DNA from: Yersinia massiliensis CCUG 53443
GTDB taxonomy: Bacteria > Pseudomonadota > Gammaproteobacteria > Enterobacterales > Enterobacteriaceae
Reading direction: 5' to 3'
DNA length: 64,000 nucleotides
Assembly: GCF_000312485.1 (NCBI RefSeq)
Contig: NZ_HE997643.1
Span: forward strand, 1,750,381-1,814,380
Shown here: positions 22,555 through 41,533 of the stretch, piece after piece
Layout of the letters: the number at the start of each line of letters is the position of its first letter
Position numbering within the stretch: the first letter of the stretch is position 1
Notes under the pieces: model-generated
What the model was told of the DNA's origin: nothing
Seen by the model: only the letters and a program-made list of their open reading frames with translations
Database searches by the model: none
Made by a program: the position numbers and the translations under genes

Positions 22555-22586
22555 GCGGAAATCATATTCAGGCGGGCAATACGGCA

Positions 22587-23366
22587 TCAAGCCGACAACG
22601 TTGCTCCGCCATCCACCACAATATCTTGTAGGGTAATATGGCTCGCCAAATCGGAGGCCAGAAACGCTACGGTGTTGGCTATTTCCGATGGCGTCGCAAT
22701 TTTCCCCAGTGGAATTCCCAACTTATATTGTTGCGGAAAACCGGCAATGGTCTGCTGCTGCGCGTCTTCACTGTGCCACATACTGCGTTGCATCGGGGTA
22801 TCGGTAGAACCCGGTGAGACCACATTGCAGCGCACGCCGTAAGCTGCCAACTCCAATCCAACACAATGGCTAAAGCTGGTTAATGCAGCTTTAGACGCGC
22901 AATAAGCTGACATTTGCATTCGCGGCACATGGGCCGCATTGGAGCTAATGGTGACCACTGCACCAAAACGCTGCTGCTTAAATTGTGGGATTAATTGACG
23001 CAGAAGGTAAAACGCGCCGGAAACATTCACATCAAAGCATTGTTTCCAATCTTCCAAACTGAGTTCCTCCGTGTCGGCCATACGCAGAATGCCAGCACCA
23101 TTCACCAAAACATCAATACGCGGAACTTGGCGCAATAAACGCTGACACACCCCTTCCACTTGCTGTGGATGGCTGATATCGAGAAATTCGGTCGCGAAGG
23201 GATAGTCTCGCGTAGCCGAAGTATTATCAGTTGAAAATGCCTTATCCAGCCCCACCACATCAGCGCCCAATGCCGCCAATTGACAGGCAACCTGATAGCC
23301 AATTCCCTGCCCAGCACCGGTGACCCAAACTTGTTTACCGGTAAAATCCATCTGCATAGCTGCCAT
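22587..23366 (-). CDS. entA: 2,3-dihydro-2,3-dihydroxybenzoate dehydrogenase EntA
   Basis: This 259-residue short-chain dehydrogenase makes 2,3-dihydroxybenzoate with NAD+, the last step of the catechol precursor pathway. It has the Rossmann glycine motif [17 protein letters not shown], catalytic Ser in ISSNAAHV and Tyr-x3-Lys in YCASKAAL. The C-terminus ends VDGGATLSA as in EntA. Its ATG overlaps the entB stop (TAATG), so it is the last, coupled gene of entC-entE-entB-entA. It is convergent with ybhR. Confidence 0.95.
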
Positions 23367-24268
23367 TATTCTGCTCCTGCCAAAGCCGAACGGTCAGTCT
23401 GATTGGCTAGCTGTTGCTCCAGCAGTATCCACCAATTATTGAGGCTGGGACTCTTCGCTAAATCAACAAAGTTCAGCTCAATGCCTTGCTGACGCCACTG
23501 GGTTGCCAGTGCCATGATATGCACCGAGCTCAGGCCATAATTGATCAGATTTTCGTTCTCATCGAAATCTTCGGCACTTTCATCAACCAGAGCCAATAAT
23601 TGCTGTTTAAGCTCATCTTTGCTGAAATTTGCTGTATTTCCGTTCGTCACAATTTCCTCGGTAAAAATGACGCGTCCACTCCGCGTTGCCACATACTTAA
23701 GTGCCATCAAATGCTCATCCAACGAGAAATCGGCAATGGCATCAGCAACCATAAACGGCTGAATGTCTTGCATAAAAGCATCTGTTGCTGTGGTCAAACA
23801 CCCGATGTGCCCATAAATACCGCAGATCACCAGTTGATCGCGGCCCTTATCCGTCATGATTTGGCGTAAAGGCGAACGGTAAAATGCGCTGTATCGCCAT
23901 TTGACCAAGACTTCATCTTCCGCATCCGGAGTCAGTTCTGATACCACTCGCTGTTTGGCTGGATGATTATTTAAACCTGCGCCCCACATATCATTAAGCA
24001 GCGCCCTATCTTCTGCACTTTGATGATTAGGTTGCGCGGTGTAGATAACCGGCACGCCCTGCTGTTTGCAGTACTGTCGTAGGGCGGCGATATTGGCGAT
24101 AACCTGCTGTATCAAGGGGTTATCTTCACCATAAAAACTGACGAAATAGTCCTGCATATCATGGATCAGCAATACCGCACGCGCCGGATTAAACTGCCAA
24201 TTCACTTTATTCGCGGGAAATTGCCCAAGTTTGGGGAGGTCGTAAGCAGAAAGAACAGGGATAGCCAT
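23366..24268 (-). CDS. entB: Isochorismatase / aryl carrier protein EntB
   Basis: This is a 300-residue bifunctional protein. The N-terminal isochorismatase domain (residues about 1-210) hydrolyses isochorismate and has IHDMQDYFVSFY with the catalytic Asp, VKWRYSAFYRS and ICGIYGHIGCL. The C-terminal aryl carrier domain has the phosphopantetheine attachment serine in NYGLSSVHIM. EntE loads dihydroxybenzoate onto this arm, which then donates it to the first condensation domain of the NRPS. A phosphopantetheinyl transferase (EntD) must be supplied from outside the window. Confidence 0.95.
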   Translation of the reverse strand: MAIPVLSAYDLPKLGQFPANKVNWQFNPARAVLLIHDMQDYFVSFYGEDNPLIQQVIANIAALRQYCKQQGVPVIYTAQPNHQSAEDRALLNDMWGAGLNNHPAKQRVVSELTPDAEDEVLVKWRYSAFYRSPLRQIMTDKGRDQLVICGIYGHIGCLTTATDAFMQDIQPFMVADAIADFSLDEHLMALKYVATRSGRVIFTEEIVTNGNTANFSKDELKQQLLALVDESAEDFDENENLINYGLSSVHIMALATQWRQQGIELNFVDLAKSPSLNNWWILLEQQLANQTDRSALAGAE

Positions 24269-24278
24269 GATAAAATCC

Positions 24279-25925
24279 TTATTTGCTAAGCGTACTGAGG
24301 CGGTCTTGTATATCCTGACGTAACCGCTTTTTATCTATTTTGCCGACTGGCGTAACCGGTAAATGGGTCACCATTTCAAAACGATCGGGTAATTTGAAGT
24401 CAGCCACCCCTTGCTCACGCAGATATTTACGTAAAGTGACTGGCCGCAAACTGGCGTCATTACTCACAATAAAGGCGCAGCTTTTCTCCCCCATTATCTC
24501 GTCGGGCATTGAGACCAACGCCGCATGAATAATGTTGTCATGGGACACCAGCAGGTTTTCAATCTCTTCTGCGGCGATCTTTTCCCCGCCACGATTAATC
24601 TGATCTTTTTCCCGCCCAACGACGCGTAAATAGCCCTCTTCGGTCATCTGGACCAAATCACCGGAATGGTAAAAACCTTCATTATCAAAGGTATTGGCAT
24701 TATGCGTTGGGCTGCGGTAATAGCCGCGGAAGGTATAAGGGCCACGGGTTACCAGCGCACCAACTTCCCCCTGCGCGACGGGAACCCCGTCACTATCAAC
24801 CACCTTGATTTCATCGTCTTCGCTGATGGGTCGCCCTTGAGTGGTAAACACCAAATGGTCACTGTCATCAAAGCGGGTGTAATTCACCAGTCCTTCCGCC
24901 ATACCCAATACCTGCTGCAATTGACAGCCCAATACCTGCGGTATACGTCGCGCCAGAGATTCACTGAGTTTCGCGCCACCGACTTGTAATACCTGCAAAC
25001 TGGTCAGGTCATCAGCAAAATGTTCCGCGGCTTGTAACCATAGGGCTACTGCGGGGGGAACTAAGGAAGTCAATGTGATCTGATGGCGCTTAATGAGTGG
25101 GAAACAGCTCATGGCACTGGGATCGGGTGCCAGCACGACGCAGCCGCCAGCGTAAAAGACGCCTAATGCCCCCGGTGAACTTAGCGGGTAATTATGGGCG
25201 GCGGGTAAGGCACATAAGTAGCGCGTGTGTTCGTCAAGCTGACAGATCTCCGCACTGGCACGCACACTGTAGTAATAGTCATTGTGGGTACGGGGGATCA
25301 GTTTTGGCATACCGGTGCTGCCGCCGGAGAGTTGAAAAAAGGCGACTTCATCGGCGGCAGAAGGATGAAATTCCTCGGTTTGATTGCCTAGGTCACCCTC
25401 CAACTCTGATCCATAGAGCACCGCTTCCAGCAATGGAGCATAATCCGTCTCTCCCGCCACCAGCACCACGTCCAACATCGGCACTCTTTGCTGCAATTGG
25501 GCGCAATAACGGCCATCAGCAAACAGGTTGTGACCGGCATGGGCGATCAATAAACGTGGTTGAATCTGTTCAATATAGGCATTTAATTCCAGCCGGTTAT
25601 GGCTAAATAATGCATTGACTGGCGCGACACCGATTTTTAATAGTGCGAAATAAACGAGATAGAATTCGGCGCAATTAGGGAGTTGGACCAATGCCGTATC
25701 ACCGCAACCCAAGCCCTGCCGAGTCAAGTGAATGGCGAGTCGCTGCGCGGCCTGATCAAACTGAAGATAGCTAATATGGCGCTCACCACAAATGATGGCC
25801 GTGGCTTCGGGTCGAATCTGACACTGGCGAGATAACATCTCTGTCATCGGCTGATCGGTCCAATAGCCTTTTTCGCGGTAGCGACGTGCAAATTCCTCTG
25901 GCCAGCGAGTGAACTCGATGCTCAT
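24279..25925 (-). CDS. entE: 2,3-dihydroxybenzoate-AMP ligase EntE
   Basis: This 548-residue stand-alone adenylation enzyme activates 2,3-dihydroxybenzoate and transfers it to the EntB carrier domain. It carries core motifs [22 protein letters not shown] (A3 loop), [16 protein letters not shown] (A5), YHSGDLV and [20 protein letters not shown] (A7/A8), and a closing GKIDKKRLR with the A10 lysine. The start ATG overlaps the entC stop (ATGA), and the sequence from there aligns with the EntE N-terminus [20 protein letters not shown]. Confidence 0.95.
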
Positions 25926-27136
25926 GGCTGCTCTCCTGAAGGGGTAATTGCCAGCGCATTGAGCATGGTGCCCAATTTGGCTTCGGTTTCTAACCATTCC
26001 AATGCCGGTTGTGAGGCGGCAACAATGCCCGCACCGGCAAATAATCGCACTTGAGTGGGATGCAAGGTGGCGCAGCGGATAATGACCGCCCACTCACCAT
26101 TACCCTGCTCATCACACCAGCCAACAATCCCACTGAATAAGCCGCGATCAAAAGGCTCCAAGTGGTTAATCAGTTGCCGAGCTTTTGCTGTCGGTAAGCC
26201 ACACAAAGCCGGTGTCGGGTGCAATATATTAGCCAGTTCCAGTACCGACATCGCCGGGTCTTCCAGTTCACCATGGATAGCAGAAGATAAGTGCCATAAA
26301 GCCGCCGTGCTAATCAATGAAGGCTGTGAGGGGATATTCAGACTGCGGCAATGGGGTGTCAGTAACCGGCGGATCTCATCAACCACTAAGCGATGCTCAT
26401 ATTGATCTTTTTCTGAATCCAGTAGCGCTTGGCTGATATCCAGATCGTCCTGTTGATTCGCCTGACGTTTTGCCGACCCTGCCAGTGGATTGGTATAAAC
26501 CTGAGATAAATGCTTACGCACCAATAATTCAGGGCTGGCACCGAGTAAGACTCCTCCATCGGCCAAAGGCACCCTAAAGTGATAGGCAGTGCTGTTTTGC
26601 ACCAGCAAATGATTCATTACTTGGTCACTATCAAGCGGGCTATCAGTTTCAATTTCTAGAACACGTGACAGAACAACTTTATGAATGGTTCCGCGTTGAC
26701 AGGCAGAAATAGCCTCAGTCACGGATTGTTTGAATTGATTTTCATCTGGCAAGCTACGCACACAACCCGCGCTGACAGGGCTGCGATTCGCTATTTTTGC
26801 CGCATTGACCAACGTTTGTCGGTCACAAACCTGATAATGCTCCGGTACAAATAAGCAGGAGGCGTGACTCACATCAAAAGGTATTGCGCCAACAATGATA
26901 GGCTTTTGTTGCCCCGCTTTATGCGCACGTTGGAAAGCCAGTTTTATTGCACTTTGCAGTGAATCATTGCTTCCAGTACGACTTTGCGCGGCTTGATTTA
27001 TTCGCTCGAAGATACCGCGAGTTTTAATACTCTGGTGTCCTGAGGTGAATAAGAATGTTGAGGGTATGGTTGAAAACGGCGAATTAACGGGCATTTCTTC
27101 AGAGCTACCATGTTCGTCAGAGTTGCTGTATCGCAC
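25922..27136 (-). CDS. entC: Isochorismate synthase EntC
   Basis: This roughly 404-residue chorismate-using enzyme converts chorismate to isochorismate, the first committed step to the catechol. It belongs to the MenF/EntC/PabB family. It has [20 protein letters not shown], the catalytic region [38 protein letters not shown] and [12 protein letters not shown]. The GTG at 27136 is chosen because GGAGG stands 5 bases before it; upstream ATGs lie inside the Fur-like site. It leads the entCEBA operon and is divergent from the FepB-like gene. Confidence 0.93.
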
Positions 27137-27162
27137 AGAGACCTCCATTGCGATGTAAATAC

Positions 27163-27189
27163 TAATGATAATAATAATGACTATCATTT
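27163..27189. promoter_or_regulatory. Fur box between entC and the FepB-like gene
   Basis: On the minus strand AATGATAGTCATTATTATTATC matches most of the 19-bp Fur consensus GATAATGATAATCATTATC and contains overlapping hexamers (GATAGT, CATTAT, TATTATC). It sits 27-53 bases ahead of the entC start and in the 180-base region shared with the divergent fepB-like gene, so both are probably iron-repressed. Confidence 0.75.
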
Positions 27190-27316
27190 CCTTTAATGCG
27201 TGGTAAATTACGACTAAGTATTCGCATTGTCAATAAATGTAAAAATATTATTATTAACCGTTGCTAATATAAACCCGCTAACTTAGCGCCTACTCACAAG
27301 AAGAGAAAACGTCGTT

Positions 27317-28351
27317 ATGTCCCTTGGTATTCAGCATAAAACAGGGTTTTCACGCTTGATTGGCTTTGGTTTTTTGAGCCTTGTTTTGTGCTTATCAGGC
27401 TGTAAACCTGCCGAAGAAACAACAGGTGAGTCTACCCCTTCAGCAGCCAGTGAAAGCCCAACTACATGGTCGCGTACAGTGGAAACGGCTAAAGGTTCGG
27501 TCACACTGACACATCAGCCAACACGGATTGTCTCTACCAGTATCACCATGACCGGCACCTTGCTGGCGATCAATGCACCAGTGATTGCCACAGGCGTGAC
27601 CGTACCCGATACCACAGTGGCTGATCATCAAGGATTCTTTACGCAATGGTCAGATGTTGCGCAATCGAGAAAATTGGCACCGATGTACCAGACCGAGCCC
27701 AACGCCGAAGCCGTTGCGGGCATGAATCCAGATTTAATTATCATTGCCGCCACTGGCGGTGATTCAGCGCTGAAGTTATATGAGCAATTGTCAGCCATCG
27801 CCCCAACGTTAGTGATTAATTACGATGATAAGAGCTGGCAAGAATTAGCCCTTGTATTAGGGCAAGCGACAGGACACGAAAGCGACGCTAAACGAGTGAT
27901 TGATGAATTCTCCAATCGGCTCAATGAGGTAAGACAGAATATTACTCTGCCGCCGCAACCCATTTCTGCATTCGTCTATCAGGCCGCCAGTAGCACCGCG
28001 AATTTATGGACAGAGAATTCAGCGCAGGGGAAATTATTGCAGGAACTGGGCTTTACGCTGGCGGAGATCCCGAATTCAGTGAAGGGCAACACCAGTATGG
28101 GGAATCGCAAAGATATCATCCAACTGGGTGGTGAGAAGTTGGCCGAAGGCTTGAATGGCGAAACTATTTTGCTCTTTTCCGGTGACCAACCGGCGATTGA
28201 TGCACTGAAAAGTAATCAATTTTTAGCCCATATTCCGGCAATTGAACACAATCGAGTTTATGCCGCAGGGTACGATACCTTTCGGTTGGATTATTACAGT
28301 GCGAGTAATTTGTTAACCCGAATTGAGGGCATGTTTAAGGCGAAGCCTTAG
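27317..28351 (+). CDS. fepB: FepB-like Fe(III)-catecholate siderophore-binding lipoprotein
   Basis: This 344-residue type III (helical-backbone) periplasmic binding protein is similar to FepB. The N-terminus is a lipoprotein signal: a hydrophobic run followed by the lipobox LCLSGC (Cys near residue 29), then a Ser/Thr/Glu-rich linker. Binding-fold features include PTRIVSTSITMTGTLLAI, AGMNPDLIIIAATGGDS and VYAAGYDTFRLDYYSASNL. E. coli FepB is a soluble periplasmic protein, so membrane anchoring is a difference. No fepCDG permease or ATPase genes are nearby; the partners must be elsewhere. Confidence 0.85.
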   Translation: MSLGIQHKTGFSRLIGFGFLSLVLCLSGCKPAEETTGESTPSAASESPTTWSRTVETAKGSVTLTHQPTRIVSTSITMTGTLLAINAPVIATGVTVPDTTVADHQGFFTQWSDVAQSRKLAPMYQTEPNAEAVAGMNPDLIIIAATGGDSALKLYEQLSAIAPTLVINYDDKSWQELALVLGQATGHESDAKRVIDEFSNRLNEVRQNITLPPQPISAFVYQAASSTANLWTENSAQGKLLQELGFTLAEIPNSVKGNTSMGNRKDIIQLGGEKLAEGLNGETILLFSGDQPAIDALKSNQFLAHIPAIEHNRVYAAGYDTFRLDYYSASNLLTRIEGMFKAKP

Positions 28352-28386
28352 CGGCGAATGTTGTTTTGGTGGATATTCGGCTAAGT

Positions 28387-28425
28387 GATCAATTGGGTTG
28401 ATAAAGTGTCACAACCCAGTTGATC
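28387..28425. terminator. Bidirectional terminator between the FepB-like gene and entS
   Basis: A 14-bp stem (GATCAATTGGGTTG with CAACCCAGTTGATC, one G-U pair) surrounds an 11-base loop and sits between convergent genes. Confidence 0.65.
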
Positions 28426-28465
28426 TTCACCGCCTTAACCGTCATCTGGCAAGAAAGCCATCAAA

Positions 28466-29740
28466 TTACTCAACGACCGCCTCATCCTCTTCTGAACCAC
28501 GCTGATCGCCCGCCATGGTGGCCTCACGCAGTGTCCCACCAAAGAGCGCAATGAGGCTCCCCAGTGCCGCGGCTGCCACGCCAAATGTCAGGGCGCTGAG
28601 TGCTGGAGCCATCACTTTCGCTAATACCCCTAGCCCCAATGCCCCGAATGATTCACCCGCGACAAACTGGACATTCCACAGACTGTTCACCCGCCCCAAT
28701 AACGCATCCGGTGTATGAGTTTGTACCAATGTATATTGCAGCAAGCCGCTAATCGACCCCAGATAGCCGTACATCAACAAGCCCGGTAGCGCCAAATAGA
28801 CATTATGGGTTAAGCCGAGTGTCCCGATGGCTAAAAAAGCGGCAATCGAGCTGTACATCAGTACCACGCCAGGCCGTCGGACCTGACTGACCCATCCACT
28901 GGTAAACGCCCCGATGGTCGCTCCCAATGGCACGATTGAATACATCAAACCAATCTGCGAGGCGCCGACATGATAGGTATTTTCCGCCAGCGCCGGAAAC
29001 AAAATACGAATGGCGCCAATCATGCTGACCAACGTCCCCAGCAACACCACAGCCCCCACAATTTTGTGGCTAAAGACGAACGAAATCCCGGTGGCAAGCG
29101 CCCGCAGCGGGTGCTCATGCTGGCTTATCGCCGGTTTCATGGCAGGTAGTCGCAGCAGCGGTAATAAGGTGAGCATGGTCCCCACCGCAGCAATGCCGTA
29201 GTTCCAGCCTAACCCGCCGTACACAATGACCAAGCCCCCGATCGCGGGAGAGATGACCGAGCCAAAACGGACAGTGAGCATGCTTAACCCACCGGCAGCG
29301 GCCAAATTCTCGCGCCCAACCAATGACGGTGTTGCCGCCATCAATGCCGTCATCCCCAGCGCCCCGAAGAACCCATCCCACGCGGCTAAGACATACAGTA
29401 CCCATAAGGAGGGCGTCGCCGAGAATGCATTGAAACTTAAGCCAATAAAGCCTAAACCACAGGTAAAACGCGCAAATAAGATCAGTGTGCGCCGATCAAA
29501 TCTGTCTGCCAGTACGCCCCCCAGTAGCAGGCCGATAAACATCCCTGCCCCATCCAAGGTGACGGCCAATCCGACTTGTAAGGTTGATCCCGTCATCTGT
29601 TGAATCTGTACCGGTACCGCGACCGTGAGCATTCCCAGCCCTAATATCGAAATCAGGCGAGCAAAAAATACTGCGCGAAAGTTGGCGTTATTCTTTAACA
29701 AGCTGAAATCTAGAAGAATAGGCGATTTTGCCATGTTCAT
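28466..29740 (-). CDS. entS: EntS-type MFS siderophore exporter
   Basis: This 424-residue, 12-helix inner-membrane transporter of the major facilitator superfamily is similar to enterobactin exporter EntS. It shows LLKNNANFRAVFFARLISILGLGML at the start, the MFS motif GGVLADRFDRRTLIL after helix 2 and a second GAFTSGWVSQVRRPG in the second half. The C-terminal tail is acidic (GSEEDEAVVE). It is the last gene of the fes-mbtH-NRPS-entS run on the minus strand, 150 bases after the NRPS stop with a hairpin in between. It would pump the finished siderophore into the periplasm. Confidence 0.92.
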   Translation of the reverse strand: MNMAKSPILLDFSLLKNNANFRAVFFARLISILGLGMLTVAVPVQIQQMTGSTLQVGLAVTLDGAGMFIGLLLGGVLADRFDRRTLILFARFTCGLGFIGLSFNAFSATPSLWVLYVLAAWDGFFGALGMTALMAATPSLVGRENLAAAGGLSMLTVRFGSVISPAIGGLVIVYGGLGWNYGIAAVGTMLTLLPLLRLPAMKPAISQHEHPLRALATGISFVFSHKIVGAVVLLGTLVSMIGAIRILFPALAENTYHVGASQIGLMYSIVPLGATIGAFTSGWVSQVRRPGVVLMYSSIAAFLAIGTLGLTHNVYLALPGLLMYGYLGSISGLLQYTLVQTHTPDALLGRVNSLWNVQFVAGESFGALGLGVLAKVMAPALSALTFGVAAAALGSLIALFGGTLREATMAGDQRGSEEDEAVVE

Positions 29741-29805
29741 TTAATCCGTTAATGTGGGTCACCATGACCCACCATGTCTTAAGAGAGTAGATAGATTCGG
29801 TTGAA

Positions 29806-29845
29806 GTTGGCTCGCTGCGAGGGTTTGACCTCGCACCTAGCCAAC
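29806..29845. terminator. Hairpin between the NRPS gene and entS
   Basis: Two stacked perfect stems (GTTGGCT/AGCCAAC and GCGAGG/CCTCGC) are separated by a symmetrical 4-base internal loop. Without a T tract it is probably a processing or stability element inside the operon. Two 13-bp imperfect direct repeats (ATCAATCGTCAAC and ATCAGTCGTCAAC) lie just after it. Confidence 0.45.
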
Positions 29846-29890
29846 ATCAATCGTCAACATCAGTCGTCAACCATCAACCGCTTGCCACTA

Positions 29891-32800: not shown

Positions 32801-35800
32801 GCCATCATGCTCCAATAGCTGGATTTGCTGTTGCTGCAAGGCCGCCAGTTGCGTTAACAGTGGCAATTGAGGTTGCAGTTTTACCCGCACTGGGAGGGTA
32901 TTACTGAACAAGCCAACATGCTGCTCGATGCCTTCTATCTCACTAAAACGACCCGAAACCGGCGAGCCGAAGACCACATCATCACGGCCACTGAGTACCC
33001 CCAACAAGGTCGCCCAAACGCCTTGCAATAAGGTATTCAGCGTGATGCCTTCACGCCGCTGCAAGGCGGTCAATGCGTTTTCCAGTTTGCTGTCCAGCTC
33101 AATCACCCATTCGGATACTGGACCGGCGGCATTGGATTCGGGGTACAAAATTGTCGGCGTCGCCCCTTGCAGCGCTTGCTGCCAAACCGTGCGCTCTTGC
33201 CGTAAGTCCCGCGCTGTCATGCGGCGAATTAAATCACCATAGCTCACACTCAGCGGCGGCAGTTTTTCACTATTACCAGATTTCTCACTATTACCCGACT
33301 TTTCACTATTACCCGATTTTTCACTCTTGCCATACAGGTGCAGTAAGTCATGTAACAAGATGGCCGACGACCAGCCATCACCCACCAAATGATGCGCTAT
33401 GATCACTAAGGAATGGCGCTCGCTGCTGTAGCGGATCAACGTCGCCACCAGCAAAGGTTGCAGCGTCCCCGCCGTGTCGCGCATCAGATCGCGTGCCAGC
33501 CCTTCGCGCTCTAATCGCTTGGTTTCGGCCATTTGCTGATGCGGCGTCAGTGCACTGAGATCATGCTGCTGCCAAGGCCAGCGACGGGCATTGCCATGAA
33601 TTTGCGGCAGGATTTGCAAAGATTCAGGGTGTAGCTCACTGTCAAAAATAGCGCCCAATTGCGGATAGCGTTGTAGCAAGCTTTCCAGCGCATCACGTAA
33701 GCGTTCGATATCAAGCTCACCCTGAAGATCAAAACGGCTAATCGCATTGTAATTGTTGGCTTCTTGCCCTAGCTGAGCATGGAACAATAGCCCTTGTTGC
33801 AGCGGTAAAACCGGTAAAATATCCGCTATCGGACCATATTTTTCACTGGCGGCTTGCCACAGTTTTTCCGGTAAAATATGGGCTGTTGGCATCGCTAGCG
33901 CGGGCTCTGCCCCCTTCTCAATCAATGGCTGTAATGCTTGCGCCATTCGTGCCGGTGTACGCAAAGCAAAAATTTCACGCGGGGTTAAGCGGTAACCCGC
34001 GCGGCGCAAAGCACTCCCCAGCGCCATGGCTAAAATACTGTCGCCACCCAGTTGGAAGAAATCATCTTCTGCCCCGATGAAATCTAAACGCAGCAAGCTG
34101 GCAATCGCCGTGCACAGGAGCGTTTCCTGCGGGGTTTGCTGTTCAAGATGGGTTGACTGTTCAAGACGGGTGGACTGCTGCCGATGTTGTGGGGCGGGCA
34201 GTGCCTGACGATCTATTTTGCCATTCACGGTCAATGGCATTTCATCCAGCACCATCAGCAGCGCGGGCACCATATAATCCGGTAAAGTGACCGCCAGTTG
34301 ACGCATTAATCGTGCATTGAGATCTTCGCTGTCACGCAGTTGTGCATCAGGCACTGAGCAGTAACCAATCAGCCGGTGTGTCGCGCCGATGGCTTGTGCA
34401 ATCACCACGGCACTGCTGACTTCGGGTAAAGCCACCAGCGCATTTTCTACTTCGCCCAATTCGACGCGAAAACCACGCACTTTTATCTGATGGTCAATTC
34501 GGCCAACAAAATCTAACTGCCCCTGTGCTGTCCAGCGCATCAAATCGCCACTGCGGTACATCACTTCGCCGTGACGGAATGGGTTGGCGACAAAACGGGC
34601 GGCCGTTAAGTCAGGTCGATTCAAATAACCACGCGCCAATCCTAGGCCAGCAATATAGAGCTCCCCGACCGACCCCACCGGGACTTTTGCCAGTTGGCTA
34701 TCCAGCAAATAAACTTCGGTGTTAGCCACTGGGCGGCCCACCACCGGTTGTGACGACACCGCGGTATGTGCGCCAAGGGTATCGATGGTGTATTCCGAAG
34801 GGCCATAGAAGTTAACCACATTCAGCTCAGGATGCTGCTTCAGCAGATCCCATAACCGCGGGGTCGCCGCTTCTCCGCCAATCATAATGAAAGCAGGCCG
34901 ATGGCGACCAGGCTCCAATAAGCCGCTATCGATCATTTGAGTGAAGAAAGACGGCGTAATATCCATCGTGTCGATGGGTGTCTGATCCATCAACTGCACC
35001 AGCGCATAAGCATCACGGCGCATTTCCTCATCAAAAATCACCATCTCACAGCCCATCATCATCCAAAACAGAGGTTCCCAAGAGGAATCAAAGGAAAATG
35101 ATGCGGTGTGTCCAGCACGCATTCGACGCGTATTTTGTTGCTTGAAGGCCGCCATCGCCGGACCATACAGATAGGTACGATGCGCCAGCAACAAGTTCAC
35201 TAACCCGCCATGGGTGCTCATGACCCCTTTGGGCCGCCCAGTCGAGCCGGAGGTGTAAATCATGTAAGCCAAATGGTCGCCGTGCATTGGCTGCCGACGT
35301 TCAATATTGTTGATGGGTTGGATAGCATAAGCCGCACATTCACGCTGGAAGTGAGCGTCATCCAGACAGACTATCGGCATCTCACCCGTCGCATTCAACG
35401 GAGATAACACACTTTCTGTCGATTGGTGGGCCAACAGGATGCGCGGAGTGGCGTCTTCACACATTAACGCCAGCCGTTCCATCGGATAATCGAGATCCAG
35501 CGGCATATAGGCAGCACCACTGGATAACACCCCCAAAATCGCCACTAGCGAATCCACCGTTCGGGGAAGACCAATCGCAATCACATCTTCGGCCCCAATA
35601 CCTCGGGCAATTAACGCACGCCCCAATTGAGCGACACGAGCAGAAAGCTGATGATAACTGAGGCTTTGATCGCCACATCTCACCGCAATGGCATCCGGTT
35701 GTGCATTGACTTGTTGCTGGAAAATATCCAGCACTGAAACGACGCCGGCAGGCAGACTGAATTGTGGGCCTTTCGCCCAGCTATCAATGGATTGCAATTC

Positions 35801-37177
35801 TTGCGCGGGGGTCAGTATGAGGTTGCCAATCGGGATGGCGGCCTGAGTCGCCAGTTGTTGCAACAAATACGATATCCGTTCACCGTGCCCTCGGAGGCTG
35901 GCGTGATCATAACGCTCCGCATTCGCCAAGATTTCCAGCATTAGCTCGCCGTTTTCGAGATAGAGATCAATTTCTAAATCATCTACTGGGCCAGAGGCGA
36001 GCGTGTGAGTGACGCCCGTGATTTCCCCTAGATTCAGCGCAAAATCAAACAGTTTGAAATTCAGCACGGGGCCATAAAGTGCCCGTTGGGAACCGACCAT
36101 CCCCAGATCGCGCCGTAATTGATCCGCTTCATAGCGCTGATATTTCCGTACCCTTTTCAACTCGCCCGCCACCGCTCGAGCAACATCCAGCAGGTTCATT
36201 TCAGGTTGTAAATTCACCTGCAATGGCAGAACATTCACCACCGGCCCAGTGGCCGATAAAGCGGCCGATCCTAAGCGGCGCATAAACGGGCATCCTACCG
36301 ATAGACCCATTTCACCACTCATTCGGGCAAAATATGTCATCAGCAGTGCCATCGCCATATCGGCGGCAGTCAGACGTTGCTCTGCACCCTGTTGTGTCAA
36401 ACAGCTAAACAAGGCTGAGTCGATATCAATGCGCTGGCGCAACACGCGACTCGCAGCGTGTTCTGCCCTAACGGGCGAGTTTATGGCTGAAAGAGAAATC
36501 GCTGCGGATAAATCCGCGGTATGTTGCAGCCAGAATTGCTTATCACGTTGCTCGGTTTCAGAACCGGCATACGCTAAATATTCACTGACTACATCACTGA
36601 AAGGGGTAAAGGGCGATTCGCCAATGGGTTTATTCTGCTGGAGAGCAGTGTAAATATCAGCGATACGGCGGGTAATGGCGGTGAAACTAAAGCCATCGAT
36701 CACCAGATGATGATAACGCTGATACCAGAGCCAGACCGGTTTACCTTGTTCATCCGGTACACGAATCACCCAGTGGCGATAAAGGGGTTCGTCACCATCG
36801 GCCAGTAAATCCGCATCAATATCATCTTGCATTAATGCCAGTGCCGCCTGACGACCATCGGCACGAGAACTGAGATCGAGCCAAACCAGCTTGGGAATGT
36901 CAGTTGCTTTACACTGGAGAGGAATACGCTGCATCGGGCCATCAACGCCGTGGAAAAAGCGAGCATGCAAGGTATCAGCCTCAGATAACCCTTGGCTGAC
37001 GGCGCGGCTAAAGAGCATTCGGTCCAACGAACCGGCCAGTTCAATGTAATGAGCCACGGTATACAAGGTCTTTTGCTGGCTGAGCTGGTCGGCAAACCAA
37101 ATACCGGGTTGTGCAGCAACCAGTGGTAACTCGATAATAGCGGCATCTGCAAAAATGGGGGTTGAATCCTCTGACAC
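29891..37177 (-). CDS. Two-module EntF-like nonribosomal peptide synthetase (C-A-T-C-A-T-TE)
   Basis: This protein has about 2428 residues. Module 1: condensation domain with HHLVIDG near 156-162, adenylation domain with YTSGSTGRPKGV near 640, carrier LGGDSI near 1044. Module 2: condensation with HHLVGDG near 1264, adenylation near 1734, carrier LGGHSL near 2134. The thioesterase has GYSLGG near 2269. Read against GrsA by eye, the module 2 pocket is D-V-W-H-F-S-L-V-D, the EntF serine code. Module 1 is D-S-E-D-M-G-F-I-D, whose acidic E239, D278 and D331 suggest a basic side chain (Lys, Arg or Orn). No epimerisation domain is present. The likely product is a trimer of dihydroxybenzoyl-basic residue-serine. 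The GTG start at 37177 follows AAGGAA; the frame is open upstream. Hexapeptide repeats interrupt two linkers. It follows mbtH and precedes entS. Confidence 0.9.
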   Translation of the reverse strand: MSEDSTPIFADAAIIELPLVAAQPGIWFADQLSQQKTLYTVAHYIELAGSLDRMLFSRAVSQGLSEADTLHARFFHGVDGPMQRIPLQCKATDIPKLVWLDLSSRADGRQAALALMQDDIDADLLADGDEPLYRHWVIRVPDEQGKPVWLWYQRYHHLVIDGFSFTAITRRIADIYTALQQNKPIGESPFTPFSDVVSEYLAYAGSETEQRDKQFWLQHTADLSAAISLSAINSPVRAEHAASRVLRQRIDIDSALFSCLTQQGAEQRLTAADMAMALLMTYFARMSGEMGLSVGCPFMRRLGSAALSATGPVVNVLPLQVNLQPEMNLLDVARAVAGELKRVRKYQRYEADQLRRDLGMVGSQRALYGPVLNFKLFDFALNLGEITGVTHTLASGPVDDLEIDLYLENGELMLEILANAERYDHASLRGHGERISYLLQQLATQAAIPIGNLILTPAQELQSIDSWAKGPQFSLPAGVVSVLDIFQQQVNAQPDAIAVRCGDQSLSYHQLSARVAQLGRALIARGIGAEDVIAIGLPRTVDSLVAILGVLSSGAAYMPLDLDYPMERLALMCEDATPRILLAHQSTESVLSPLNATGEMPIVCLDDAHFQRECAAYAIQPINNIERRQPMHGDHLAYMIYTSGSTGRPKGVMSTHGGLVNLLLAHRTYLYGPAMAAFKQQNTRRMRAGHTASFSFDSSWEPLFWMMMGCEMVIFDEEMRRDAYALVQLMDQTPIDTMDITPSFFTQMIDSGLLEPGRHRPAFIMIGGEAATPRLWDLLKQHPELNVVNFYGPSEYTIDTLGAHTAVSSQPVVGRPVANTEVYLLDSQLAKVPVGSVGELYIAGLGLARGYLNRPDLTAARFVANPFRHGEVMYRSGDLMRWTAQGQLDFVGRIDHQIKVRGFRVELGEVENALVALPEVSSAVVIAQAIGATHRLIGYCSVPDAQLRDSEDLNARLMRQLAVTLPDYMVPALLMVLDEMPLTVNGKIDRQALPAPQHRQQSTRLEQSTHLEQQTPQETLLCTAIASLLRLDFIGAEDDFFQLGGDSILAMALGSALRRAGYRLTPREIFALRTPARMAQALQPLIEKGAEPALAMPTAHILPEKLWQAASEKYGPIADILPVLPLQQGLLFHAQLGQEANNYNAISRFDLQGELDIERLRDALESLLQRYPQLGAIFDSELHPESLQILPQIHGNARRWPWQQHDLSALTPHQQMAETKRLEREGLARDLMRDTAGTLQPLLVATLIRYSSERHSLVIIAHHLVGDGWSSAILLHDLLHLYGKSEKSGNSEKSGNSEKSGNSEKLPPLSVSYGDLIRRMTARDLRQERTVWQQALQGATPTILYPESNAAGPVSEWVIELDSKLENALTALQRREGITLNTLLQGVWATLLGVLSGRDDVVFGSPVSGRFSEIEGIEQHVGLFSNTLPVRVKLQPQLPLLTQLAALQQQQIQLLEHDGLGLGEIQRLAGASTLFDTLLVVENYPENNQLHQQSFNGLRCDALNNRGYTHYPLTLLVLPGERLHLQLEYRDAVTDPQQLAQRLVMLLEHLVWQPELPLSALDLLTRDEKALIASVNDTAIALPKLTLCDLMNQQAQSTPQAVALLDIDETLTYQQVNQRVNTLAAILRQQGVQPGDRVAVALPRSVNLSLALMAILSAGAAYLPLDTGYPADRLAYMIGDAKPRLIITVSALAERFVGQAPLLLLDQQDLQVTATLPDVVIAPESPAYLIYTSGSTGRPKGVVISHGAIVNRLLWMQNEYPLGGDDVVLQKTPCSFDVSVWEFFWPMITGARLVMAPPEAHRDPDALRTLIEDYGVTTAHFVPSMLAAFVSAMTAQDKPCQSLRRVFCSGEALSRELSVLYQAIFSAPLHNLYGPTEAAVDVTYQPAYGDALAQVVGNSVPIGKPVWNTQLRILDSMLRQVPVGVAGDLYLCGVQLAQGYYGRPDLTASRFVADPYDHGQRMYLTGDIARWLPDGSVEYLGRSDFQLKIRGQRIELGEIESALLALPQVQQAVVHARTLVGVEGALAGADSRQLVGYIVPTNGAENSDMELLRQQLSEQLPAHMVPAVIVSLNAFPLSANGKLDRKALPAPINQAGHGGRAPHAGLESVIAGLFANLLGVESVNADDDFFALGGHSLLAMRLAADLRRELQQPVAVGQVMVASTVATLAAALSQPQSEMSAGKAGFSEVLPLRSGHGHPLFCLHPASGFAWQFSLLPRYLPGNWPVLGIQSPRPDGAIATCQDMDSLCDHHLATLRQVQPQGPYHLMGYSLGGTVAQAMAVKLRAQGEEVAFLGLLDTYPPETQDWNAPIEAEALEEVERERALFMAAAGDEQEEKREMFAQIQANYDDAVGLLSGAKTPIYEGETTLFVATQTLPDGESPEEIWRPYAKQLQTYSLDCSHITMMSPETLKVLGPILQRVFKGIRSLS
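33264..33326 (-). repeat. 18-bp tandem repeat inside the NRPS (SEKSGN units)
   Basis: Three 18-bp units plus a partial fourth encode Ser-Glu-Lys-Ser-Gly-Asn repeats. They fall in a loop of the second condensation domain, about 28 residues after HHLVGDG, where related domains have only a few residues. Confidence 0.9.
34142..34177 (-). repeat. 18-bp duplication in the A1-T1 linker of the NRPS
   Basis: Two adjacent 18-bp units (TTCAAGATGGGTTGACTG and TTCAAGACGGGTGGACTG on the plus strand) encode QSTRLE/QSTHLE-type hexapeptides, followed by a related QQTPQE. They lie between the first adenylation and first carrier domains. Confidence 0.75.
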
Positions 37178-37266
37178 GATGGGTATTCCTTTTTTTGGCA
37201 ACAAACGACTTATCGCAACCGGTAGGGCCGCAATATTCCGATAATTCCTTTCGCCGATGACCTGCG

Positions 37267-37491
37267 TTATCGCAGGGCAGCCTCTGCGCGAATCAAGCTG
37301 GCCGGACGCATATCGGTCCAATTGGCCTCAAGATATTTCACACAGTCCGCCCTGCTTTGTGGGCCATAGACACTCGTCCACCCGGCTGGGATCGCCGTAA
37401 TTTGTGGCCACAAACTGTATTGCTGCTGTTCGTTGATCAGCACTAAGAAGGGTAATTCTTCGTTATCAAAGGGGGTTAACTTGCGCTTCAT
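37267..37491 (-). CDS. ybdZ: MbtH-family NRPS adenylation partner (YbdZ-like)
   Basis: This 74-residue protein shows the invariant MbtH pattern: LVLINEQQQYSLWP, then AGW, then CVKYLEANWTDMRPASL. MbtH proteins bind adenylation domains and are often essential for their folding and activity. Placement between fes and the NRPS gene matches the enterobactin locus order (fes-ybdZ-entF). The gap to the NRPS start is about 90 bases, probably within one transcript. Confidence 0.95.
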   Translation of the reverse strand: MKRKLTPFDNEELPFLVLINEQQQYSLWPQITAIPAGWTSVYGPQSRADCVKYLEANWTDMRPASLIRAEAALR

Positions 37492-37516
37492 GACTCATGC
37501 GATGACGTCCTTGTAT

Positions 37517-38845
37517 TTAGTGAGTGGAACCTAATAAACAGTGCAATCCATCAATCAATCCACCACGCCAACACAGTGCATCGTGACCACCGGAATAAAT
37601 ACGATAGTGCAACCGATGCCCAGCCTGACGCAGCGCCTCACTCATGGTTTCATTGACTTGATAAATCACATCTTCACGGCGGCCGGCCTCCATAAAAATA
37701 GCCAATGGATGACCCGCTCCCAAACCTTGGTATACCTGCTCTGTCAGCCACCCCTGATGTTCAGCCGTCCCCGCCGACAATGCGGTGAAATTATCGACGT
37801 CTGGCCACCAGAAAGAACCGGATTGGCTTAATACACAGCCAAAACGCGCAGGCCAATGTAATCCGGCATATAACGAAGCCAGACCACCATAGCTTTGCCC
37901 AGCAACAACCGTGCGAGAGGCTTTTTCAGTGAAGGGTTGCAACAAGGCAACTTGTGGCAGTAATTCTGTTTGCAGCGCGAGCCAAAATTCTTGATTGCAG
38001 GGCAATTCTGCCGAGCGATGGGGCTGATCAATGATATCAATCAACACATATACACTCGGGGGTAAGCGGCCAGCGGTCGTTTCTTTATCCAACACGCCAA
38101 ACACCGTCTGCCCCTGCGCCCAATACTGACCATCGAGCAAAATAGCCAACGGCCTTTCTGCTACCGCGTCCGCATCAAAACGGGCATTGCCAAGACTTTC
38201 ATCACCCACAGTGTGATAAATCCACACATTGCGGCTGTTACCTAATCGCGGGCTGTTCCAAGTGATGCGTTGTAGCCGTTTTGAGTCGGTAGGCAGCATT
38301 TTGCCCGTATCAACCTGTTGCCAAGCCGTCTGTGGCAATGCATCGGCGAGATGTACCGCAGAAAGCGGCATGCCACGATAACTGCAATGAGCCGCGGTGA
38401 GATTTAATGGATCGTTTTCTGCCAGATCCAACATTGATATCCACCAATCGCGCTGCGCCTGACGCCGCTCTGGTGCACTACCTTCGGGCAAATTTAAGCA
38501 TTGCGCTGCGGTAGCGGGAATAAAGCAATAACTGGCACGAAAATCAGATTCCACTTCCGCCTGCCAATACCAAACATCTGTTTGGCCCAAGCGCTGGAGA
38601 GTTTCAGGATTCGGGCTGTGGTGATCTGTCAGTCCATTGACGTCGATATAGACCCGACGGTAAACAGAGTCGTGCGCCTTTCCCTGTCGGTCGCGCCAAA
38701 GGAAAGTCAGTTTTACATTGCCAGCCGCGAGCGGCTCCACCAACGGTGTCCCCCACTGCGCGACCTGCTGCCACCATGAGTCACTACCGGCTAAAGGATC
38801 CGCTAGCAGACGCTGGCTCGCCGGATATTCATTTGTCGTGCCCAC
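37517..38845 (-). CDS. fes: Fes-type catecholate siderophore esterase
   Basis: This roughly 442-residue cytosolic esterase cleaves the serine-ester backbone of the imported ferric siderophore so that iron can be released. The N-terminal Fes domain includes VKLTFLWRDRQGKAHDSVYRRVYIDVNG. The alpha/beta-hydrolase core has the nucleophile Ser in VVAGQSYGGLASLY and the catalytic His in YSGGHDALCWRGGL. GTG at 38845 was chosen as start because AGAGGG lies six bases upstream; the TTG at 38851 abuts that sequence. It leads the fes-mbtH-NRPS-entS operon. An esterase is consistent with an oligoserine-ester siderophore. Confidence 0.92.
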   Translation of the reverse strand: MGTTNEYPASQRLLADPLAGSDSWWQQVAQWGTPLVEPLAAGNVKLTFLWRDRQGKAHDSVYRRVYIDVNGLTDHHSPNPETLQRLGQTDVWYWQAEVESDFRASYCFIPATAAQCLNLPEGSAPERRQAQRDWWISMLDLAENDPLNLTAAHCSYRGMPLSAVHLADALPQTAWQQVDTGKMLPTDSKRLQRITWNSPRLGNSRNVWIYHTVGDESLGNARFDADAVAERPLAILLDGQYWAQGQTVFGVLDKETTAGRLPPSVYVLIDIIDQPHRSAELPCNQEFWLALQTELLPQVALLQPFTEKASRTVVAGQSYGGLASLYAGLHWPARFGCVLSQSGSFWWPDVDNFTALSAGTAEHQGWLTEQVYQGLGAGHPLAIFMEAGRREDVIYQVNETMSEALRQAGHRLHYRIYSGGHDALCWRGGLIDGLHCLLGSTH

Positions 38846-38967
38846 ACTCAACCCTCTTAATTTTACTGCCCAAGTCTATTCGCGGCTATTCGCGCGAATA
38901 CCTGTCCCGTAACGACTAAAAAGAAAGCTAATACATACGCGATTCTTATGAGAATACGAATTCTATT

Positions 38968-38986
38968 GAGAACAATTATTATTTGC
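38968..38986. promoter_or_regulatory. Fur-like site in the fes / TonB receptor divergent region
   Basis: GAGAACAATTATTATTTGC matches the Fur 19-mer at 13 positions by eye. It is preceded by another partly matching dyad, ATTCTTATGAGAAT (about 38942-38955). The 317-base region between the fes and receptor start codons holds both promoters; nothing else was recognised in it. Confidence 0.55.
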
Positions 38987-39162
38987 AATAACATAGTGCG
39001 CATTCTTTCTGGGGTGTCACTCTCTTGTCGCATTTGGCATGGGCGCGGTGTGGTGCGGCTAATGATTGAATGGCTAGAAATCTTTTATATAACTCATTAA
39101 ATCAGACCTATACCCAATAGTTTCCGAGGGTATATTTTTGTGTTTCTAGATAGGGATAAATC

Positions 39163-41379
39163 ATGTTTGAAACTTCTGGCAAGAAGAGATCAACAAAATT
39201 GCCATTTCGGGCAAGCTGCAAATCAAAGACCTTATTATTCACCTCAGCATTAATATTATTGCCTTCCCTTCAAGCTTCCGCAGCGACCACCGCTAAAGAA
39301 GCCACTGCGTCGAAAGAAGATAAGCTGGTGGTGGTTGCCCAAACGGGCAGCGGGCAACAAGATGATGGTTTCGTTGCTAAAAATAGCTCCACCGGCACCA
39401 AGACCGATACCCCGCTAATCCGCACACCACAGTCAGTTTCTGTTATTACCGCTCAGCAAATACAAGACCAAGGTGCAACCTCTGTCGCACAAGCTCTGCG
39501 CTACACCGCAGGCGTCGTACCCGAGTATCGGGGCGGCTCTAATATGAATGATGAAGTTATCATTCGTGGTTTTGGTTACGCACCGCGTTTTCTTGATGGT
39601 TTGAGCTATAACTCATTGGGTGGCGCACGTCGTGGGGGGCAAATTGACCCTTGGTTGTTGGAACGGATTGAGGTGGTACGTGGCCCTGCCTCCGTGCTGT
39701 ACGGTCAGGTCAACCCAGGCGGTTTAATCAATATGGTTAGCAAGCGCCCGACCGCAGAAAGCATTCATAAAGTTCAGGTCGGTGCGGGTAATAACAGCTT
39801 GGCAGAAGCCGCTTTCGACTTTGGCGGTGCAGTGGATGATGAAGGCAAAGTGCTTTATCGCCTGAATGGCATTGGCAGAACTCAGGATGATGCGGTTAAT
39901 TCCTTTAAACAGGAACGTTTTGCGATTGCGCCTGCGTTAACCTTTATCCCGAACGAAGACACCACCTTTACTTTACTGACCAGTTATCAGAAAGAGCCAA
40001 AAGCCGGTTCGCGTAACTTCTTACCCGCAACGGGCACAGTGTTTGGCACTGCCTACGGCAAAATTCCCTATGATTTTAATGTCAGTGACCCCTCATTTGA
40101 TCAGTCTGAGCGTGAACAAACTTCTGTTGGTTATTCGCTTGAGCATTACATCAATGACACCTTAAAATTCCGCCAGAATCTGCGCTACAGCTATAACAAA
40201 CAAGACTATAAATATCTGGTCTTTATGGATTTACTCGCCGATAACCGCACCATGACCCGTCGCCCGCAAATCGAGCGACAGACAACCGGTGAATTTGCCG
40301 TTGATAACCAGTTGCAAGCTGATTTCTGGACCGGTCAATTGAACCATACCGTGCTGACTGGATTAGATTACAAACGCACCCGTATCGATAGCCAATTCTT
40401 TATGGGAACGGTACAGCCAAAATACAATCTGGATTGGGTATCGCCGAGTTATGGCCTGAATATTCAGGACAGTGATTTGTCACTCAATAGCAGCGACCTG
40501 ACCAAACTCGATCAAGTCGGGGTTTATTTACAAGATCAGATTGAGCTGGATAAGTGGAACTTCCTGCTGTCTGGACGCTATGACTGGTCACAGCTAAAAA
40601 ACCAGTACCGTAAGACCGCCACTCATGATCAGCAAGACGACCATGCTTTCACTGGCCGTGCTGGCGTACTGTATGCCTTCGATTCCGGTATTTCTCCTTA
40701 CGCCAGTTACAGTACTTCATTTGAACCTAGTACCGCCAAAGGCGCACCAGGGACGGGGGCATTGGACCCAGTGACCGCACGTCAGGTTGAAATCGGCATC
40801 AAATATCAGCCACCGGGTAGCAGCACGATGCTGACCACCGCGCTGTATGATTTGCGCCAGAAAAACATCAGCCAATACGATCAGGCGCTAGCCTATAACG
40901 TCCCGATTGGCGAAGTGCAATCTCAGGGTATCGAAACCCAGTTAAACAGTGAGATTAACGATAATATCAACCTGATTGCCGCTTATACCTACACCAAAGG
41001 GAAAGTGCGTGAGACCAAAACACTGGCTGAATTAGATAAAATGCCAGCCCGTACACCGAGTCATTCTGCTTCACTCTGGGGAATGTATACCTTTGATAAA
41101 GGTGTGGTAGAGGGTTTATCCACCGGTATGGGTGTGCGATATATCGGCACCAGTTGGGGAGATGCGAAGAACAGCTTTAAAGTCCCGGCAGTGACCCTGT
41201 ATGACTGGATGATGCGTTATGAACTTGGGCAAGCAGTCCCTTCTCTGAAAGGCACCAGTTTGCAAGTCAACGTCAACAACGTTTTCAACAAAGAATATGT
41301 CGCCAGTTGCGCACAAATGGCCGCTTGTTTCTATGGCAGTGGCCGTGTTGCCACCGCAACGGTCAGCTATTCCTGGTAA
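39163..41379 (+). CDS. TonB-dependent siderophore receptor (FhuA/FhuE/Fct type)
   Basis: This 738-residue outer-membrane receptor has a signal peptide ending near ASAATTAKE, a TonB-box-like DKLVVVAQ and a plug domain (IRTPQSVSVITAQQIQDQGATSVAQALRYTAGV, ERIEVVRGPASVLYGQVNPGGLINMVSKRP). A 22-strand barrel follows, ending in aromatic VSYSW. The C-terminal pattern with two cysteines (ASCAQMAACFYGSGRVATATV) is typical of the FhuA/FhuE group rather than FepA. Receptors for monomeric or short catechol siderophores such as Fct for chrysobactin also belong to this group, which would fit the predicted product. It is divergent from fes with Fur-like sites between. Confidence 0.88.
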   Translation: MFETSGKKRSTKLPFRASCKSKTLLFTSALILLPSLQASAATTAKEATASKEDKLVVVAQTGSGQQDDGFVAKNSSTGTKTDTPLIRTPQSVSVITAQQIQDQGATSVAQALRYTAGVVPEYRGGSNMNDEVIIRGFGYAPRFLDGLSYNSLGGARRGGQIDPWLLERIEVVRGPASVLYGQVNPGGLINMVSKRPTAESIHKVQVGAGNNSLAEAAFDFGGAVDDEGKVLYRLNGIGRTQDDAVNSFKQERFAIAPALTFIPNEDTTFTLLTSYQKEPKAGSRNFLPATGTVFGTAYGKIPYDFNVSDPSFDQSEREQTSVGYSLEHYINDTLKFRQNLRYSYNKQDYKYLVFMDLLADNRTMTRRPQIERQTTGEFAVDNQLQADFWTGQLNHTVLTGLDYKRTRIDSQFFMGTVQPKYNLDWVSPSYGLNIQDSDLSLNSSDLTKLDQVGVYLQDQIELDKWNFLLSGRYDWSQLKNQYRKTATHDQQDDHAFTGRAGVLYAFDSGISPYASYSTSFEPSTAKGAPGTGALDPVTARQVEIGIKYQPPGSSTMLTTALYDLRQKNISQYDQALAYNVPIGEVQSQGIETQLNSEINDNINLIAAYTYTKGKVRETKTLAELDKMPARTPSHSASLWGMYTFDKGVVEGLSTGMGVRYIGTSWGDAKNSFKVPAVTLYDWMMRYELGQAVPSLKGTSLQVNVNNVFNKEYVASCAQMAACFYGSGRVATATVSYSW

Positions 41380-41395
41380 GTTCTCTGATAGTTCT

Positions 41396-41428
41396 ACCCC
41401 GTGCCGGTTGAGCTATGCCGGTACGGGT
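41396..41428 (+). terminator. Hairpin after the TonB receptor gene
   Basis: ACCCCGTGCCGG pairs with CCGGTACGGGT (one G-T position) around a 10-base loop, 16 bases after the stop. A weak T tract follows. Confidence 0.55.
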
Positions 41429-41460
41429 TCTCAATCTACGTGCTGATTGCTCCCTGACAC

Positions 41461-41491
41461 AAAAACAAAAAGGGCACCCGCAGGTGCCCTT
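41461..41491 (-). terminator. Rho-independent terminator of ybhL
   Basis: On the minus strand AAGGGCACC-TGCG-GGTGCCCTT is followed by TTTGTTTTTG, a textbook intrinsic terminator 43 bases past the ybhL stop. Confidence 0.8.
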
Positions 41492-41533
41492 CATCAGAAC
41501 TTCACTTCACCAGCATCAACTGGCCAACCCTTG

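Follow-up and report, generated by a model that had tools for sequence, protein, structure and literature searches.

A predicted frederiksenibactin cluster of Yersinia massiliensis located between ybhR and ybhL, apart from its permease genes

Which catecholate siderophore is made by a two-module synthetase that carries no epimerization (E) domain, and is its basic residue of the L or the D form? This question is raised by a locus at positions 22587-41379 of a 64,000-nucleotide stretch (the window) of contig NZ_HE997643.1 of Yersinia massiliensis CCUG 53443, whose genome assembly comprises 5.05 Mb in 22 contigs. A first-pass annotation of the window had predicted a (dihydroxybenzoyl-basic L-amino acid-L-serine) trimer and had left the residue and its configuration open. 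We consider it highly likely that the locus represents a Yersinia frederiksenibactin (fre) cluster working by the pathway outlined below, and its product is very probably frederiksenibactin, which consists of three dihydroxybenzoate-lysine-serine units. That is, the prediction is narrowed to one known compound, the cluster is of a known kind, and the find is largely ordinary.

The synthetase was 86.0% identical to the synthetase of Y. frederiksenii ATCC 33641 (FreF). Nine proteins of the cluster could be compared with the ATCC 33641 locus (EntB in part; EntA lay outside the compared stretch), and all of them were 83.9-93.4% identical and stood in the same order, except for FepCGD. In the Pfam analysis, the synthetase showed Condensation, AMP-binding and PP-binding stretches, two of each, and a single Thioesterase domain at its C terminus, in the order condensation-adenylation-carrier-condensation-adenylation-carrier-thioesterase (C-A-T-C-A-T-TE), exactly as the first-pass annotation had described it. 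E domains belong to the Pfam Condensation family. This family has exactly two matches genome-wide, both in this synthetase, and no third C/E-family domain was found by Pfam anywhere in the genome, including the segment between T1 and C2.

The specificity codes of the A domains were then extracted from 21 synthetases (the window enzyme included), 12 of which are from Yersinia. The A1 code (DSEDMGFIDK) and the A2 code (DVWHFSLVDK) of the window enzyme were identical at all ten positions to those of Y. frederiksenii ATCC 33641 (locus L007). Among the 12 Yersinia enzymes, nine including that of the window had the same A1 code, two had DSEDMGYIDK, and Y. ruckeri had DADDAGLVDK. The A2 code was the same in 20 of the 21 synthetases; for G348, the exception, the script gave the A1 code again, as the 2010-residue frame analysed stops short of a second A domain. 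DVWHFSLVDK is given as the Ser code of the enterobactin synthetase (PMC3795760). Thus, the second pocket is of the EntF-like serine type as first proposed, and the acidic first pocket, which had been ascribed to Lys, Arg or Orn, matches that of the Lys-using FreF and differs from that of Y. ruckeri. Because of the 86.0% identity to FreF and the identity of both codes, the residue of module 1 is most probably Lys. The predicted trimer of dihydroxybenzoate, a basic L-amino acid and L-serine is supported by its agreement with this characterized relative.

The proposed pathway is as follows. EntC, EntB and EntA would form 2,3-dihydroxybenzoate (DHB), and EntE would load it onto the carrier domain of EntB; all four genes lie within the cluster and were found by Pfam or NCBIfam, which bears out the claim of a full DHB route at the locus. 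C1 would hand DHB to L-Lys activated by A1, and C2 would couple DHB-L-Lys with L-Ser activated by A2, with the MbtH-like protein aiding adenylation. The TE domain would link three units via serine esters and release the trimer, mainly in linear form; L-Lys, the all-L chemistry and the linear trimer are here predicted from the FreF product. EntS would then export the trimer, the receptor, FepB and the FepDGC permease (encoded on another contig) would import the ferric complex, and Fes would cleave the esters and free the iron. Family membership points to these roles of MbtH and of the export, uptake and release proteins.

The same pathway might stop short of the trimer or not operate at all, since the locus is split from the permease. 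The FepCGD genes are on another contig, and the trimer of Y. frederiksenii is accompanied by monomer and dimer masses (reported ions, m/z 1072.44, 721.31 and 370.17; PMC8480324). However, the reading frames of the cluster are open and the TE domain is present, and the sister genome G014 retains the same arrangement, as far as compared, with an unbroken synthetase of 97% identity. We therefore regard a cluster that yields only monomer and dimer, or is silent, as improbable.

Several points weigh against frederiksenibactin as the product. The product and its configuration in this strain are predicted from relatives. The in-frame repeat insertion in C2, which sits shortly after the HHxxxDG motif, is absent from Y. 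frederiksenii, and the residue two positions past the attachment serine of T1 is Leu; Ser occupies this position in all six relatives first aligned, namely five from Yersinia and one from Microbulbifer. An A1 code nearly the same as that of the window, DSEDMGYIDK, is found in three of five E-bearing relatives, and the A1 code is therefore silent on chirality. Finally, C2 groups with the D-donor (DCL) condensation domains, which alone would predict D-Lys.

The grouping of C2 was observed in several ways. The motif near its start (PLQQGLLFHA) resembles the PLTPLQ-G-LFH type of condensation domains preceded by an E domain (post-E) and not the AQ-R-LWF type of most reference domains preceded by a T domain (post-T). 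A quick tree of 68 rows was built with E domains as the root. In it, the family's 16 C2 domains, 11 reference post-E domains and three reference rows labelled post-T formed one group with a Shimodaira-Hasegawa-like approximate likelihood ratio (SH-aLRT) support of 96. Holding the C2 family with 14 L-donor (LCL) rows, which were chosen after the tree had been seen, was rejected in the approximately unbiased (AU) test (p-AU 0.0011). In the same tree C1 and 10 other N-terminal starter domains formed one group (SH-aLRT 100). Among PDB sequences, the ten best of 36 matches to C2 were domains of McyB, BacC, SrfA-C, TycB and PvdL, which we take to be D-accepting.

The rooted tree replaced an earlier unrooted one, which cannot show sister groups. 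From the 24 reference post-T rows we removed five with long branches and one near-duplicate, and we brought in 12 of 15 full-length E domains together with 11 starter domains; near-duplicates from Yersinia and Streptomyces were already absent. One row of the tree (L030) is long, and the letter composition of many rows is odd. The three post-T-labelled rows on the post-E side (two of L010 and one of L025) and L030 were not among the LCL rows used for the AU test; the labels were derived by script, and E domains may have been overlooked in some loci. Hidden Markov model profiles of the two subtypes (14 post-E and 27 post-T references) classed held-out references as labelled in 14 of 14 and 23 of 27 cases, respectively, when these were held out by locus group. 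Across the 21 family members, including five true post-E domains, the score differences were only -20.1 to +4.6 bits and mostly toward post-T, so that these scores do not separate the two subtypes within the family.

The subtype of C2 had been proposed in the first-pass annotation as a check of stereochemistry, and by that check the residue would be D. Yet the second C domain of TnbF from Teredinibacter turnerae also groups with DCL domains with no E domain detected, and turnerbactin contains L-Orn by Marfey analysis; the authors concluded that this domain functions as LCL (PMC3795760). The conflict of a DCL domain without an E domain has thus already been published for the turnerbactin synthetase. 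The FreF product contains L-Lys by the same kind of analysis (PMC8480324), which argues against acceptance of a D-configured donor by C2. We therefore think that the C2 subtype is no valid test of stereochemistry here and that, used alone, it would mispredict this product. The all-L form is most probable because of the measured products of FreF and TnbF, contrary to the C2 subtype. A chrysobactin-type trimer with D-Lys, whether it arose by the action of a separate epimerase or racemase in trans or by cryptic epimerization at C2, would agree with the clustering of C2 and its PDB matches, but it is very unlikely in view of the L-Lys of FreF, which has the same domain order, the L-Orn of TnbF and the lack of an E domain elsewhere in the genome by Pfam.

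Comparison with known systems places the window enzyme beside FreF. The fre cluster of Y. frederiksenii shares with it the domain order, both codes, the lack of E and, as far as compared, the gene order; the window cluster differs in its position between ybhR and ybhL, the lack of FepCGD and the C2 repeat insertion. Y. ruckeri ATCC 29473 (L008), which belongs to a species producing ruckerbactin, an Arg-containing siderophore, also shares the domain order, the lack of E and, as far as compared, the same genes, but its synthetase was 63.9% identical and its A1 code is not that of the window. Use of Arg or Orn by module 1, giving a ruckerbactin-like or turnerbactin-like product, would fit the acidic codes that Lys, Arg and Orn all have in this enzyme group (DSDDGGLVDK in the Orn-using TnbF; PMC3795760), but it is hardly to be expected when A1 is 49.5% identical to that of Y. 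ruckeri against 89.1%, with an identical code, for Y. frederiksenii.

TnbF shares with the window enzyme two modules, a TE domain and an identical Ser code. CbsF, for chrysobactin and cyclic trichrysobactin, and the viobactin system have the DHB-Lys-Ser chemistry predicted here, but they have an E domain and a D-Lys product, and the trimer of D. chrysanthemi and C. violaceum is cyclic (PMC8480324, PMC13251462). Cyclic trichrysobactin therefore does not belong among the products first listed for E-less assembly lines, since its D-Lys is tied to the presence of an E domain. Several Yersinia genomes carry clusters, fre included, that are similar to and yet distinct from the chrysobactin locus (PMC8480324). 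The enterobactin system shares the DHB route, the starter C domain, the Ser module, the TE domain and the EntS, FepB and Fes equivalogs. In contrast to it, the window locus has an extra Lys-type module and a receptor of a different family, and its synthetase fell short of the cut-off for the EntF equivalog, which is not surprising given its greater length.

How an E-less synthetase came to have a DCL-type C2 was considered from its relatives. The best five named matches among 27 loci found were those of Y. frederiksenii, Y. alsatica, Y. thracica, Y. nurmii and Y. ruckeri. In the 394 genomes sampled from the order, 33 matched the synthetase at E <= 1e-250, and in 20 of these 33 the sole listed match spanned the second A domain to TE alone. 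In five genomes (G028, G201, G262, G309 and G348) T1 and C2 are separated by an additional C-family domain, the third of the enzyme, which has an HHxxxDGVSW motif and was taken as E. Their A1 codes were DSEDMGYIDK in three, DSEDIGYVDK in G028 and DAEDLGFVDK in G348, and those of four of the five were Lys-like. A single clade of E-less family members was compatible with the data (p-AU 0.38), which concerns loss versus gain of E within the family. We tentatively suggest, as somewhat less than an even chance, that the Yersinia synthetases derive from an E-containing ancestor making D-Lys, that E was lost and the DCL-type C2 came to accept an L donor, and that later, in two sister species, biosynthesis was set apart from the permease. 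If this is true, loss of E would be a natural one-domain switch that turns the iron complex into its mirror form, from Lambda in Fe-cyclic trichrysobactin to Delta in Fe-frederiksenibactin (PMC8480324).

The LGGDSI motif of T1 was also considered as a fossil of a lost E domain. This idea was rejected, since the same letters occur in 13 of the 24 reference T domains with no following E. Separately, four E-less relatives outside Yersinia (G195, G118, G188 and Microbulbifer; L092, L093, L094 and L009) had the clearly different A1 codes DTDANCIVYK, DTDADCIVYK (twice) and DTDSDCIVYK; enzymes of this DTDxxCIVYK type possibly make undescribed DHB-X-Ser products. The C2 insertion has a shorter related form in G014 and was found in none of the 10 other Yersinia synthetases compared.

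The site of the cluster was next compared across 25 genomes of the genus, that of the window included. The genes ybhR and ybhL are spaced less than 0.9 kb apart in 22 of them; in two, the window's genome and G014, they are 19 kb apart with the cluster in between (window 22555-41533). The full synthetase is present in 12 of the 25, and fepG lies within 3.5 kb of it in 10 of these 12 but not in the window's genome or G014. Orthologues of fepC, fepG and fepD (88, 88 and 81% identical to Y. frederiksenii) were found at 302331-313572 of contig 5, FepG and FepD scoring above their NCBIfam equivalog cut-offs and FepC being assigned by similarity and position only. They are flanked on both sides by genes bordering the Y. 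frederiksenii fre locus, and beside them are further copies of Fes and FepB, 71 and 82% identical, respectively, to those of the window. A 35-kb stretch of contig 5, including a run of 397 N bases, gave no match to the synthetase, MbtH, EntS, receptor, EntA, EntB, EntC or EntE of the window. Inclusion of fepCGD in the cluster is a usual trait and not a product-defining one. Judged from the gene arrangement, the biosynthetic part has come to occupy a new site, via relocation or gain from another Yersinia, and the permease is at the usual site.

The fre locus also varies in other species, so that the window's genome is not alone in having an incomplete one. In Y. alsatica (L005, 17300-27387) other genes follow EntS, and no match to FepB, EntC, EntE, EntB or EntA was found in the 27-kb stretch; from this, its locus appears split or incomplete too. 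Relative to Y. frederiksenii, Y. thracica has an inverted orientation of EntS and the permease genes. Moreover, fepG occurs without a full synthetase in 11 of the 25 genomes, and the receptor is also kept in five of the 11. In these five (G001, G007, G008, G012 and G018) the receptor is found less than 5 kb from fepG, which suggests uptake of a siderophore made by others. The split locus and this pattern offer a useful case for the decoupling of siderophore production and uptake. In G022 (L107, 2174-18029), different genes are inserted between ybhR and ybhL, which are 16 kb apart; because of this other insertion, the site may be one at which DNA is inserted repeatedly. Our literature searches, which were not aimed at these points, found no report of the ybhR-ybhL placement, the split permease or the C2 insertion, and the new site and the E-domain history go beyond the literature found in this way.

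The features of the locus are listed in Table 1.

Table 1. Positions of the genes, domains and other features of the locus in the window
Feature	Position	Strand	Basis
EntA-type 2,3-dihydro-2,3-dihydroxybenzoate dehydrogenase	22587..23366	-	NCBIfam NF006074, 414.3 bits (cut-off 312)
EntB-type isochorismatase with C-terminal aryl carrier domain	23366..24268	-	Pfam PF00857, PF00550
EntE-type DHB-adenylating enzyme	24279..26093	-	NCBIfam NF008192, 926.6 bits (cut-off 783), match from residue 58
EntC-type isochorismate synthase	25922..27187	-	TIGR00543, 314.4 bits (cut-off 224.75)
Fur-box-like site between EntC and FepB	27167..27185	+	16/19 match to consensus
FepB-type periplasmic siderophore-binding protein	27317..28351	+	NF008200, 472.7 bits (cut-off 205)
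EntS-type major facilitator superfamily exporter	28466..29740	-	NF007792, 596 bits (cut-off 324)
FreF-type synthetase, C-A-T-C-A-T-TE	29891..37321	-	Pfam domains, kinship to FreF; 2476-codon frame
TE domain	29948..30583	-	Pfam
T2 carrier domain	30662..30853	-	Pfam
A2, Ser code DVWHFSLVDK	31355..32401	-	Pfam; code extraction
C2, condensation domain grouping with DCL	32462..33826	-	Pfam; tree and AU test
18-bp tandem repeat, 3.5 copies, in-frame insertion in C2	33263..33325	-	Repeat and alignment analysis
T1 carrier motif (LGGDSI)	33995..34075	-	Alignment
A1, code DSEDMGFIDK, predicted L-Lys	34622..35722	-	Pfam; code shared with Y. frederiksenii ATCC 33641
C1, starter condensation domain (DHB donor)	35789..37132	-	Pfam; tree
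MbtH-like protein	37267..37491	-	Pfam MbtH, 79.8 bits (cut-off 27)
Fes-type esterase	37517..38851	-	NF007758, 567.9 bits (cut-off 222)
TonB-dependent siderophore receptor	39163..41379	+	TIGR01783, 437.9 bits (cut-off 223.5)

The gene order is EntA, EntB, EntE, EntC (-), FepB (+), EntS, synthetase, MbtH, Fes (-) and receptor (+). The MbtH gene had been missed in the first-pass annotation. EntA, EntE, FepB, EntS and Fes passed NCBIfam equivalog cut-offs. EntC scored above the isochorismate synthase subfamily cut-off and below the EntC and DhbC equivalog cut-offs. All three NCBIfam matches of EntB were below cut-off, and its assignment was made via Pfam domains only; it was 92% identical to its Y. 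frederiksenii counterpart over 275 of 300 residues, the remainder lying beyond the compared stretch. The receptor was 93% identical to that of the Y. frederiksenii cluster; among the 25 models listed for it no equivalog model was passed, and the TonB-siderophore model TIGR01783 was.

Promoter and terminator scans gave counts near chance (19 against a shuffled mean of 20.5, and 27 against 21.0, respectively), and the scan of the window for Fur-box-like sites gave one site against 0.04 expected. The genome has two carrier-protein transferase genes, with frames of 137 and 250 residues, the latter of EntD size. The listed GTG start of EntE overlaps EntC, and the true start is probably internal. 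The synthetase frame opens with TTG at 37321, inside MbtH; from the alignment with relatives, GTG at 37177 is the likelier start.

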